Positions 58,741 to 62,429 of a stretch of 64,000 bases of DNA are shown here, piece by piece. Where the stretch lies: positions 2,914,001 to 2,978,000 of the forward strand of contig NZ_CP041146.1 in NCBI RefSeq assembly GCF_006494775.1. The letters are read 5' to 3'. This stretch comes from Nocardioides humi (lineage in GTDB: Bacteria > Actinomycetota > Actinomycetes > Propionibacteriales > Nocardioidaceae). Position numbers and translations under genes: made by a program. The notes beneath the pieces were generated by a model. It saw nothing but the letters and a program-made list of their open reading frames with translations. It made no database searches and was not told the origin of the DNA. Each line of letters begins with the position of its first letter. Positions within the stretch are counted from its first letter, which is position 1.

Positions 58741-60048
58741 TCAGGCCTCCTCGACGTCGGCCGCCGGGGCGCCGGTGACCTCCACCTGGGTGATCCGGCG
58801 CCCGTCGACCGCCGCGACCCGCAGCACGGCGTCGCCGACGTCGACCCGGTCGCCCACCTCGGCGACCCGCCCGAGCCGGGCGAGCAGATAGCCCGCCACG
58901 GTCTCGTAGTCGCCGTCCGGCAGCACCACCCCGGTCTCCTCCGCAACGTCCTCGATGGTCAGGCCGCCCGGGACGACGACGGGCCCGGCCGGACCGCCCG
59001 CCGCCCGGGGCGCAAGCGCGTCGGGCTCGTCGTACTCGTCGCGGATGTCGCCGACGATCTCCTCCACGAGGTCCTCGAGGGTGACGATGCCGTCCGTCCC
59101 GCCGAACTCGTCGACCACGACCGCCAGGTGCCTGCCCTCCTCCCGGAGCAGGACGACGGTCGGCAGCACCTTGTTGGTGCCGGGCAGGTGCAGCACCTCG
59201 CGCTGGACGTCCGCCACCACCCGCCCCGGCACCTGGTCGCCGAGCAGGTCGCGGACGTGGACGAAGCCGGTGATGTCGTCGAAGTCCTCGCCGATCACCG
59301 GGTAGCGGGAGTAGGGCTGGTCGACGACCCACGCGGCGGCCTCCGCCAGCGGTGTGCTGCCCTTGACGAACACCACGTCGCCGCGCGGGCGCATCACCTC
59401 CTTGAGGTTGCTCCGGGTCGCGGCGAAGACGTCGCCGAGGATCTGCCGCTCCTCCGCCGCGAGACCCTCGTGGCCGGCGACGATCTCGCGGAGCTCCTCC
59501 TTGCTCACCTCCTCCGAGGTGGCGTTCGGGTCACCGCCGAGGAGCCGGACCAGGGTGTTCGTGGAGACCGACAGCAGCCAGATCACCGGACGCATCAGGG
59601 TGGCGAACCGGTCGAGCACCGGACCCGTCAGCATCGCCACCCCGGCCGCGCGCTGCAGCGCGAGCCGCTTGGGGACCAGCTCGCCGAGCACCAGCGAGAG
59701 ATAGGCGATCAGCAGGGTCATCACGACCAGCGCCACCGTGTCCGCGGCGTCCGGGCCGAGCCCCAGGTCGACGAGGTACGGCGCCACGTCGGGCGCCAGG
59801 GTCGAGCCGCCGTACGCGGCCGAGAGGAAGCCCGCGACCGTCACGCCGATCTGGACCGCGGACAGGAACCGGTTGGGGTCCCGCGCGATCGCGGCGACCC
59901 GCTGGCCGCGGCCGCCGCGCAGCGCGAGCTGGTTGACCTGGGTCTCCCGCAGGGACACCAGCGCCAGCTCGGTGGCCGCGAAGACGCCGCCGACGAGCAC
60001 GAAGGCCACGACGAGGCCGAGGTTCACGAACGTCTGGACGTCGATCAT
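58741..60048 (-). CDS. CNNM/CorC-type membrane protein (hemolysin family)
   Basis: Membrane protein of 435 residues. An N-terminal DUF21/CNNM domain with four helices (VAFVLVGGVFAATELALVSLRETQV), a CBS pair in the middle (VMRPRGDVVFVKGSTPLAEAAAWV, YSRYPVIGEDFDDITGFVHVRDLL) and a C-terminal CorC/HlyC-type domain with VVVDEFGGTDGIVTLEDLVEEIVGDI. Bacterial members are Mg2+ or Co2+ export/homeostasis proteins; a haemolysin role is a historic name. ATG at 60048. Confidence 0.93.
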   Translation of the reverse strand: MIDVQTFVNLGLVVAFVLVGGVFAATELALVSLRETQVNQLALRGGRGQRVAAIARDPNRFLSAVQIGVTVAGFLSAAYGGSTLAPDVAPYLVDLGLGPDAADTVALVVMTLLIAYLSLVLGELVPKRLALQRAAGVAMLTGPVLDRFATLMRPVIWLLSVSTNTLVRLLGGDPNATSEEVSKEELREIVAGHEGLAAEERQILGDVFAATRSNLKEVMRPRGDVVFVKGSTPLAEAAAWVVDQPYSRYPVIGEDFDDITGFVHVRDLLGDQVPGRVVADVQREVLHLPGTNKVLPTVVLLREEGRHLAVVVDEFGGTDGIVTLEDLVEEIVGDIRDEYDEPDALAPRAAGGPAGPVVVPGGLTIEDVAEETGVVLPDGDYETVAGYLLARLGRVAEVGDRVDVGDAVLRVAAVDGRRITQVEVTGAPAADVEEA

Positions 60049-60117: not shown

Positions 60118-60284
60118 CTAGTAGTGTGTCGCGGCTGAAACGTGGTGGTGGGAGGTGTCCAGGTGCGTGCATCGCAAGGCGGCGTAGCGACGGCATACCG
60201 GGTTGTCTTCCGAGCTTCGCCAACGCCGCGAGGTGCGTGCCTGGGCGACTCCCGGCCCGCGTTTTGGCTGCGACGCGCTACTAG
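60118..60284 (+). repeat. 167-bp near-palindromic element (hairpin RNA or MITE-like)
   Basis: The left arm starting CTAGTAG (60118) is matched over about 60 bases by the reverse complement of the right arm ending CTACTAG (60284). The outer 28 bases pair throughout if G-U is allowed, and pairing resumes at GGGAG, CCAGG and CTCGC. About twelve arm differences are T-for-C or G-for-A, i.e. G-U pairs in plus-strand RNA but A-C mismatches in the minus strand. The element sits between the CNNM start and the acetyltransferase stop. The ends carry CTAG. It encodes no transposase. Confidence 0.75.
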
Positions 60285-60326: not shown

Positions 60327-60869
60327 TCAGGACGGGAGCACCATCACCACGACGTCCGGTCCGGCGTCGCCGACCGCGTCGCGCAGCCAGTCCGGTCGCA
60401 GTCTCAACACCTCCGACCAGCCCTCCCGGCGGTAGAGGGTCAGCGCCGCGGGATGGACCGGCAGCACCTCGAGGCACGGGTGCCGGCCGGCCGCACGGAT
60501 GTCGGCCACCACCACGTCGAGCAGCAGCCGGCCGAGTCCGCGACCCCGCGCCTCGACGCCCACGAACAAGGTGCTCACCCAGCCGAGATCGCCGACCTCA
60601 CAGCCGTGGGCCGCCGTGCACGCGGCGTTGAGGGCCGCGGCGCCGGGGAAGCCGCCGGCGGGGCCGGTCCGGCACACGTGGCCGACCGGGCGGCCGGCGA
60701 GCTCGGCCGTCCACGCGGACAGCGCGTCGTCGGCGTGGAGGAACTGCTCGACGGGGACGGGCAGCGGATCGCGGAACGGGTAGCGGCTCGACGACTGCTG
60801 GGCGAGCAGCACCTCGGCCAGCACCGGCAGGTCGGCGGTACGACGACGCCGGACCCAGACCTGCTCCAC
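60327..60869 (-). CDS. GNAT-family N-acetyltransferase
   Basis: Acetyltransferase of 180 residues: VEQVWVRRRRTADLPVLAEVL start, core VSTLFVGVEARGRGLGRLLLDVVVADIRAAG (acetyl-CoA loop RGRGLG) and LEVLPVHPAALTLYRREGWSEV. GTG at 60869 is preferred to the longer frame that would run into the CsoR operator region. The acceptor is unknown. An 11-base direct repeat (GCTCAGGACGG at 60309 and 60325) covers its stop. Confidence 0.88.
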   Translation of the reverse strand: MEQVWVRRRRTADLPVLAEVLLAQQSSSRYPFRDPLPVPVEQFLHADDALSAWTAELAGRPVGHVCRTGPAGGFPGAAALNAACTAAHGCEVGDLGWVSTLFVGVEARGRGLGRLLLDVVVADIRAAGRHPCLEVLPVHPAALTLYRREGWSEVLRLRPDWLRDAVGDAGPDVVVMVLPS

Positions 60870-60941
60870 GCCGTGATGGTCGCACGGCTCGCCTTCCGAG
60901 GGGCCGCCGCCGTACCGAGGGGCTCGCCTTCTTGAAATGGA

Positions 60942-60955
60942 TACCCTAGGGGGTA
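60942..60955. promoter_or_regulatory. CsoR operator TACCCTAGGGGGTA
   Basis: The TACCC...GGGTA inverted repeat with a G-tract is the typical CsoR binding site. It lies 12 bases before the csoR ATG, where bound CsoR would block transcription of the copper operon until Cu(I) is bound. Confidence 0.88.
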
Positions 60956-60966
60956 CTGTATCGATC

Positions 60967-61263
60967 ATGGAGCACGAGCACAGCTACATCGCGAACCGCA
61001 CCAAGGACGACTACCTCAAGCGGCTGCGGCGCATCGAGGGCCAGGCGCGCGGGCTGCAGCGGATGGTCGAGGAGGAGAAGTACTGCATCGACATCCTCAC
61101 CCAGGTCTCCGCGATGACGAAGGCCCTCCAGTCGGTCGCGCTGGGCCTGCTCGACGAGCACATGGCGCACTGCGTCGTGGAAGCGGTGCGCGAGGGAGGC
61201 GAGGAGGCCGAGATCAAGCTCAAGGAGGCCTCCGACGCCATCGCGCGCCTGGTCCGCTCCTGA
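60967..61263 (+). CDS. csoR: Copper-sensing repressor CsoR
   Basis: All-helical copper sensor of 98 residues. The Cu(I) ligands Cys40, His65 and Cys69 are present with exactly the spacing of mycobacterial CsoR (Cys-x24-His-x3-Cys), in EEEKYCIDIL and DEHMAHCVVEAV. It represses the operon and releases DNA on binding Cu(I). ATG at 60967 is chosen over the ATG at 60937, which lies before the operator. First gene of csoR-copZ-membrane protein-copA. Confidence 0.95.
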   Translation: MEHEHSYIANRTKDDYLKRLRRIEGQARGLQRMVEEEKYCIDILTQVSAMTKALQSVALGLLDEHMAHCVVEAVREGGEEAEIKLKEASDAIARLVRS

Positions 61264-61302
61264 CCGACCCCGACATCCCACCCGAGATCCGAGAGGACCC
61301 TC

Positions 61303-61509
61303 ATGAGCACCACCCAGACCTTCACCGTCAGCGGCATGACCTGCGGCCACTGCGTCGCCTCCGTCACCGAGGAGGTGCAGGAGATCGCCGGCGTCGAGGC
61401 CGTCGCGGTCGACCTGCCCACCGGTGCGGTCACCGTCACCAGCGCCGCTCCCCTCGACGGGGCCGCCGTCAAGGCCGCCGTCGAGGAGGCCGGCTACCAG
61501 CTCGCATGA
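61303..61509 (+). CDS. copZ: Copper chaperone CopZ-like
   Basis: HMA-domain protein of 68 residues. MTCGHC has Cys14 and Cys17 as Cu(I) ligands and the domain is complete. It carries Cu(I) in the cytosol to the CopA ATPase. A GAGAGGA ribosome site precedes the ATG. Its stop overlaps the next gene start (ATGA at 61506-61509). Confidence 0.95.
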   Translation: MSTTQTFTVSGMTCGHCVASVTEEVQEIAGVEAVAVDLPTGAVTVTSAAPLDGAAVKAAVEEAGYQLA

Positions 61510-62429
61510 ACACGCCGACGCGGCTGGCGGGCTTCGGGGCCATCGCGGTCGCCGTGTTCGGCATCGCCCTGCTCGCCGGCCGGCTGACCGGTCCGGTCGA
61601 CGCGGAGCCCGCCGGGCACGACGACGCGCACGACGACCGCGTCCACCTCGCGCCCGCGACCACCGCCGAGATCCCGGGAGGGCTGATGACGTCCCAGGAC
61701 GGCTACACCCTCGCCCTCGCCGACGACCGCGCGTCCGCCGGCGACGGCACGCCGGTGAGCTTCACGATCAGCGGCCCGGACGGCGCTCCCGTGACGGCGT
61801 ACGACGTCCAGCACGAGAAGCAGCTCCACCTGATCGCCGTACGACGGGACTTCAGCGGGTTCCAGCACGTCCACCCGACGCTGCACGACGGCGTCTGGTC
61901 GACCGAGCTCGACCTGACGCCCGGGACCTGGCGGCTGTTCGCCGACTTCAAGGCCACCGGCGGCAGCGCCCTCACGCTCGGCGCGGACCTGGCGGTCGAG
62001 GGCGACTTCCGGCCGGCGACCACGGCCGGGGAGAGCCGGACCGCGACGGTCGACGGCTACGTGGTCACCCTCGACGGCGACCTGTCGGCCGGCGCCGACG
62101 CCCGGCTCACGCTGAGCGTCAGCCGGGACGGCGCGCCGGTCACCGACCTCCAGCCGTACCTCGGCGCCTACGGCCACCTGGTCGCGCTGCGCGCCGGCGA
62201 CCTCGCCTACCTCCATGTCCACCCGGACGGCGAGCCCGGCGACGGCACGACGCAGCCGGGGCCGGACGTCGTCTTCCACACCGCGGTCCCCAGCGCGGGG
62301 ACCTACCACCTCTATCTCGACTTCCAGCACGACGGCGTCGTCCGCACCGCGGCGTTCACCGTCACCGCCGGGGGTACCGGGACGACCGAGAGCGACGAGC
62401 ACGGAGAGAGCAGTGAGCACGGACACTGA
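61506..62429 (+). CDS. Membrane-anchored His-rich protein of the copper operon
   Basis: Exported or N-terminally anchored protein of 307 residues. Helix [20 protein letters not shown] is followed by His/Asp-rich [10 protein letters not shown]. Two similar beta-rich halves then follow, each with an HVHP motif: [20 protein letters not shown] and [20 protein letters not shown], each ending in a Tyr/Trp-x-Leu-x-x-Asp-Phe strand. The C-terminus is HGESSEHGH. This suggests periplasmic-side copper binding, cupredoxin-like fold being a guess. It overlaps copA by 17 bases, so they are coupled. Confidence 0.85.

Follow-up and report, generated by a model that had tools for sequence, protein, structure and literature searches.

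The near-palindrome at 60118-60284 belongs to a widespread family of mobile hairpins, about 165 bases long, in soil actinobacteria; the window, by which we mean the whole 64,000-bp stretch analysed, covers positions 2914001-2978000 of a 6.22 Mb chromosome. In Kribbella these hairpins are inserted at CT^AG without target duplication. In all nine genomes examined their orientation is coupled to the replication fork: the strand whose arms pair through additional G-U pairs, hereafter the G-U strand, mostly has the sequence of the nascent lagging strand.

The arms of the window palindrome pair nearly end to end, and the RNA fold of the plus strand (-120.1 kcal/mol, z -8.6) was equalled by none of 200 shuffles, confirming the structure that an earlier reading of the sequence alone had picked out; the minus strand gave -79.3 kcal/mol (z -3.3), with 1 of 200 shuffles as good. 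The plus-strand fold contains 14 G-U pairs, 12 in the arms and two in the innermost stem. An alignment scoring G-U and A-C equally placed no A-C in the arms of this copy, its three A-C all lying inside a conserved internal loop, so that the sequence-only reading was correct in counting about twelve strand-biased differences. Some ORFs cross the palindrome, none of them gene-like by eye. By analogy with other copies, the element would run from AG to CT inside a single CT^AG (Table 1). Separately, the interval 60967-62429 contains in a row a CsoR-like regulator, a CopZ-like metallochaperone and one more protein, resembling by eye a copper cluster.

Table 1. The hairpin element and neighbouring features in the window
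Feature	Position	Strand	Basis or remark
Whole element, 163 bp, AG...CT	60120..60282	+	Near-complete single hairpin; + is the G-U, better folding strand; probable bounds, by analogy with 66 Kribbella copies and one empty site
CT, left half of CTAG target	60118..60119	.	Sequence; analogy with empty site
AG, right half of CTAG target	60283..60284	.	Sequence; analogy with empty site
Left outer arm	60120..60157	+	Differs among copies, complementary to right arm; concerted change counted in G056
Right outer arm	60247..60282	+	Folds and arm alignments
Conserved core hairpin, cross-genus	60158..60246	+	Model R1, which extends a few bases further either side
GTGCGTGC, direct repeat, left copy	60163..60170	+	Pairs with right copy; four pairs are G-U
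GTGCGTGC, direct repeat, right copy	60233..60240	+	Pairs with left copy
GCAAGGC, conserved	60174..60180	+	In and beside internal loop, left side; core alignment
AACGC, conserved	60222..60226	+	In and beside internal loop, right side; core alignment
Flanking ORF, presumably a GNAT-like acetyltransferase (by eye)	60327..60968	-	Stop 42 bp from CTAG
Flanking ORF, presumably a CNNM/CBS hemolysin-like membrane protein (by eye)	58741..60048	-	ORF list

The blastn search for further copies that the sequence-only reading had proposed returned 41 matches to the window hairpin in its own genome (G000), and plain DNA comparison returned matches in 27 of 58 relatives. A covariance model, R1, built from an alignment of 40 cores, gave at least 78 matches in G000 at E<=0.01, the weakest of which are uncertain; this number is a lower bound because 150 of 14,221 candidates were scored. 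R1 also had matches in 74 of the 246 genomes sampled from the class, covering 21 of 103 genera, in a survey that scored 16 candidates per genome under stricter filters than the own-genome search. The named matches comprised 26 loci of Nocardioides and Kribbella, and eight Streptomyces plasmids. Among the genomes treated below, G000 and G025 are taken as Nocardioides and G056, G046 and G038 as Kribbella. With a Streptomyces copy as query we recovered 137 places in 63 plasmid records, and 30 of the 40 plasmid matches listed stop near the same two points, 155-175 bp apart. Phage records yielded no match to the family, Rfam yielded none for the window at the gathering cut-off or for 13 family loci at E<=0.1, and our literature searches, which covered few subscription papers, found no published description of the family. 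The many copies, their sharp ends and an empty site (see below) bear out the suggestion of a hairpin-type mobile element.

Well-preserved copies folded as single hairpins of about 160-170 bases; four (L005, L006, L023 and L025) share a loop about 50 bases longer, common to copies with otherwise unlike outer arms. In the 40 aligned cores, GGTGCGTGC is conserved on both arms, GCAAGGC and AACGC are conserved at the internal loop, and four pairs between the GGTGCGTGC/GTGCGTGC repeats are UG or GU in 36-38 of the 40 sequences. Covariation, also proposed as a check, was evident as both-side changes that kept pairing at 17 of 28 consensus core pairs. The core is conserved in sequence and structure, and the outer arms mainly in complementarity.

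The wobble bias first noticed in the window is general. When G-U and A-C received equal scores, which keeps the alignment from favouring either, G-U exceeded A-C in 42 of the 43 elements scoring >30, the other being a tie (totals 300 vs 80). Over all 81 distinct loci, 65 had more G-U, 11 were ties and five, all with short or poor arms, had more A-C; the 34 loci with 39-50 pairs contained 211 G-U and 49 A-C, with a G-U excess in 33. Part of the A-C count is alignment noise, because some arms overrun the true ends. The 66 Kribbella elements contained 606 G-U, 114 A-C and 234 other mismatches, and 63 of them had a G-U excess (two ties, one opposite). Folding with DNA parameters also made the G-U strand the more stable one in 84 of 85 copies examined. 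The excess of G-U over A-C across the family indicates a pairing constraint on one strand that is much weaker on the other.

Outer arms are unlike between subfamilies and still pair. The 35 copies in Kribbella G056 differ from one another in sequence, yet their outermost 18 pairs are nearly all Watson-Crick. Pairs of copies differing at one outer position showed 11 double and no single changes, and those differing at two showed 29 double changes and one single, although copies are shared between pairs and these counts are hence not independent. Over the 66 Kribbella elements, the first non-Watson-Crick pair lies at a median position of 20, with the wobble pairs further in. The Streptomyces plasmid copies gave 33 double vs 67 single arm changes over 30 positions at 9 of 13 loci, a count that takes in part of the mismatched inner arm and includes one locus out of register by one base at its end.

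To define the insertion site we used an empty site and the flanks of many copies. At locus L213 of G056, 8 of 29 orthologous loci in other Kribbella genomes lack the element and read CT^AG at the junction, seven of them aligned on both sides (for example, CCCCGCT^AGGGGTG); the remaining orthologous loci are different at the junction or unalignable across it. An A beside the left end and a T beside the right end are nearly constant, in 32 and 31 of 35 copies and, in a larger set, in 53 and 57 of 66 Kribbella copies. TA occurs on both sides of 23 of these 66 copies, a set in which about six ends were placed a few bases off. Perfect targets are uninformative on duplication of TA or CTAG, because the element ends AG...CT overlap the CTAG target in sequence. 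At imperfect targets, however, none of the 43 Kribbella copies lacking two-sided TA had equal flanking dinucleotides, indicating that the element is AG...CT and was inserted without duplication. The sequence-only reading had also raised a target-site duplication from the CTAG at both ends of the palindrome; the two CTAGs are present, but the 43 informative copies speak against any duplication. Similarly, a TA duplication, first favoured from the Streptomyces plasmid ends (of ten plasmid copies with their ends read, almost all have TA on both sides), was ruled out by the Kribbella flanks.

These flanks already strain the view that the family is a conventional MITE, mobilised with TA duplication at CTAG by a cut-and-paste DDE transposase of IS630- or IS5-like type, which we consider improbable. 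Such an element would have inverted ends and could prefer CTAG, it would account for the two-sided TA in Kribbella and on the plasmids, and an annotated IS5-family transposase with GGTGTCC-type inverted ends lies ~3.5 kb from one plasmid copy, some hairpin ends being, as we take them, IS5-like. A DDE-type MITE would nevertheless be expected to show the target-site duplication that is missing from all 43 informative copies, and it does not predict an orientation coupled to replication. Moreover, a profile search of the own genome for PF13358 (IS630-type DDE_3) returned nothing, and no autonomous element with matching ends was present among the loci checked.

Many copies abut the 3' ends of genes. 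In Kribbella, 37 of 63 adjacent 3' ends but 9 of 68 5' ends had a copy no more than 10 bp away; in Nocardioides the counts were 37 of 65 vs 17 of 68. If CTAG is commonest at TAG stop codons, such contacts are expected from a CTAG target. At three Streptomyces plasmid loci (L162 1501-1504, L166 1501-1504 and L161 1666-1669) the element end overlaps the annotated end of the neighbouring gene, so that the element apparently contributes part of the stop codon.

Orientation was compared with replication in nine genomes. Among the matches listed, the G-U strand was the nascent-lagging (that is, leading-template) sequence in 187 of 228 copies (78 in G000 and 150 of 184 matches from the eight other genomes), and the majority orientation was identical in all nine. 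The origin was marked by dnaA and the terminus taken opposite to it, except in G230, which was assumed linear; rounded lengths were used for G191, G231 and G230, and G032 consists of two contigs. Again among the matches listed, the rule was followed in Kribbella by 34 of 35 copies (G056), 17 of 17 (G046) and 12 of 14 (G038), and in Nocardioides by 59 of 78 (G000) and 23 of 28 (G025). The proportions were 9 of 11 in G032, 9 of 12 in G191, 12 of 17 in G231 and 12 of 16 in G230, not significant singly (p 0.065-0.15); all p-values given here are nominal, because copies are related. The window hairpin conforms to the rule, 19 of the 78 G000 copies break it, and 44 of 60 follow it when the zone around the expected terminus is left out. 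In G056 the orientation reverses between 5,729,714 and 5,811,238, bracketing the origin within 82 kb in this one genome (dnaA lies at ~5,758,000). A second reversal falls between 1.26 and 2.34 Mb, in the region where the terminus is expected.

We then asked how the rule relates to neighbouring genes, using 136 copies (for Kribbella 66 of 71 matches, for G000 50 of 78 and for G025 20 of 37) and a home-made gene caller trained on the window. In Kribbella it was obeyed by 13 of 14 copies in head-on tandem, 27 of 28 co-directional, 10 of 10 convergent, 12 of 13 divergent and 1 of 1 unclassified contexts; in Nocardioides it was obeyed by 53 of 70 copies, including two of three head-on. Transcription as the cause of orientation was consequently rejected in Kribbella, where head-on copies still obey; the Nocardioides head-on sample is three copies. 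Leading-strand GC skew around copies was -0.01 in G000 and +0.02 in G056, so near zero that a mutational strand bias acting on inserted copies is improbable as the cause, and R1 reads the polarity of the shared core. Selection for one very long RNA hairpin, as the sequence-only reading had suggested, stands as a one-strand pairing constraint across the family and not as to RNA: the strand tracks replication and not transcription, so that the folded form could be single-stranded DNA as well as RNA.

The same counts bear on a host regulatory RNA hairpin, a 3' UTR stabiliser or terminator spread by recombination. The strength of the plus-strand RNA fold and the many copies at gene 3' ends would suit such a role, but we regard it as very improbable, because in Kribbella 27 of 28 copies in co-directional tandem contexts have the G-U strand antisense to their neighbours and 13 of 14 in head-on contexts have it in the sense direction, indicating that orientation ignores gene direction. 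Placement at 3' ends is also expected from a CTAG target favouring TAG stops, and no copy compared with Rfam matched a family there.

The main rival to our preferred reading places the bias after insertion, and we hold it to be an appreciable possibility, if not a probable one. Insertion would be blind to orientation, and replication would then remove or flip copies with the G-U strand on the lagging template. Cleavage of the hairpin, its deletion, or inversion of its interior by template switching would continue until that template carries the A-C strand, the weaker folder. Palindromes are unstable on the lagging template, the G-U strand is the more stable with DNA parameters in nearly all copies examined, and the observed rule places the weaker strand on the lagging template. 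The arms of G056 copies change in concert, and template switching is described, in a study in yeast (PMC8604942), as homogenising inverted-repeat arms and inverting spacers. However, the strand difference in G000 was alike in rule-breakers and other copies (10.5 vs 12.1 kcal/mol, p = 0.44, 13 vs 37 copies; 50 of 78 examined), and thus gives no help to this explanation; L212-L217 of G056, 90-100% identical to L213, all obey the rule. On its own, loss or flipping also leaves the pairing of the G-U strand and the missing target duplication unexplained.

Any account has to explain why one strand must fold, how the hairpin is joined without duplication and why it is coupled to the fork, and a G-U strand that folds and is joined at CT^AG would do so most simply. 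We therefore favour, with nearly even credence, a mobile hairpin that is non-autonomous and acts in the form of its folded G-U strand. Beyond strand folding, duplication-free joining and fork coupling, we infer the following course. A presumed enzyme would recognise the folded core of the G-U strand, as single-stranded DNA or RNA, while the paired foot would hold the 5' AG and 3' CT ends together. The hairpin would enter DNA at the fork, the simplest destination being a CT^AG of the nascent lagging strand, and the following round of replication would turn it double-stranded. The outer arms would be recopied from each other by fill-in or template switching, which could explain why they change together. 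A more far-reaching version, which we rate as rather unlikely, is that the family represents a new class of bacterial mobile element: a single folded strand (RNA or single-stranded DNA) would enter the nascent lagging strand by blunt joining at CT^AG, with polarity opposite to IS200/IS605, driven largely by host replication enzymes or a hairpin-recognising recombinase, arm recopying keeping the ends paired.

Several results count against the folded-strand reading, among them the rule-breaking copies of G000, the four genomes not significant singly, the five loci with an A-C excess, the predominance of single changes in the plasmid arms and the opposite template polarity of known single-stranded DNA elements (PMC6006769). 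In addition, searches with four profiles found no enzyme for it. Besides the absence of PF13358 from the own genome, PF01609 (DDE_Tnp_1) gave two hits in the own genome, neither with matching ends, and PF01797 (Y1 transposase) gave one partial match, in G056, among 28 genomes. PF00078 (RVT_1 reverse transcriptase) was found in 9 of the 28 and was absent from G000, G025, G056, G046, G230, G231 and G191, copy-rich genomes among them, unlike what would be expected of a retro-element with its own RVT_1 in its hosts. A TAGGGTGTGTCTCCC pattern was present in G211, G231, G191 and G291, with none in G249, and 30 of its 47 matches made loci; inspection of ORFs at L178, L189, L191 and L200, which have TAGGGTGTGTCTCCC ends without a partner end, revealed no transposase. 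The Streptomyces plasmid neighbourhoods opened had no gene common to all. These searches found no partner enzyme, and the orientation may mean that the hairpins are moved as folded single strands by one yet to be found.

Comparison with known systems led us to file these hairpins as kin of single-strand-like hairpin elements, closest in behaviour to REPINs and IS200/IS605 and a member of neither. The palindromic MITEs Correia, ERIC, RUP and ypal, of about 100-170 bp, have inverted ends and many copies, and several duplicate TA; our family is like them in size, ends and copy number and unlike them in TA duplication and replication-coupled orientation. Integron attC sites are folded single strands recognised by structure, with conserved unpaired bases. 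The folded strand with conserved unpaired bases would be a shared feature, but we saw no cassette array, and here the whole element is the hairpin. IS200/IS605 elements insert without target duplication, as the Kribbella copies do. According to a published account (PMC6006769), they are also coupled to replication and their hairpins are recognised by structure, and they, like known single-stranded DNA elements, use the lagging-strand template; in our family, by contrast, the better folding strand is the other one, the G-U strand lying on the leading template in the 187 of 228 matches listed. It is possible that the active form is instead a folded A-C strand. A Y1 match, moreover, is missing from 27 of the 28 genomes.

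The REPIN/REP elements, associated with RAYT (TnpA-REP), are likewise short, non-autonomous extragenic hairpins with compensatory changes, and mobility through a Y1 transposase has been proposed for them in two papers (PMC3116915; PMC6006769). In REPINs, however, the outer REPs are conserved and the interior is variable, whereas here conservation lies in the core and variation in the outer arms. The GT[AG]G foot of REPs is not the rule either: the Kribbella foot is mostly AGTG...CACT and other copies start AAGGGC or AGGG, although the window copy contains GTAG, as AGTAG. The single partial PF01797 match also sets the hosts apart from those of a RAYT-dependent element. A MITE review (PMC10969869) makes no mention, by word search, of Streptomyces, Actinomycet, Actinobacteria, hairpin, stop codon or orientation.

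The orientation of this class-wide family is a natural record of fork polarity, and with these hairpins the entry of long palindromes into chromosomes, and their survival there, can be tested directly. If a folded strand does move without a known transposase, there would be an undiscovered mobilising enzyme or a host replication route to be found.

Some copies depart from the standard form or location. Short derivatives of ~84-95 bp occur at L179 (G211) and L203 (G231), where the sequence was read and the ends and outer arms are kept with the core absent, and, judged from end spacing, at L197 (G231) and L193 (G291). A solitary 32-base outer-arm fragment without a core (L059 ~2146-2177, G000:C1:5976645-5976676) is perhaps an excision or deletion scar. 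Finally, two copies (L264 ~1600 and 4916; G000:C1, 260 and 263 kb) lie within a cluster resembling by eye ftsZ, ftsQ, murC and murG, one of them between the genes so identified as murC and murG.
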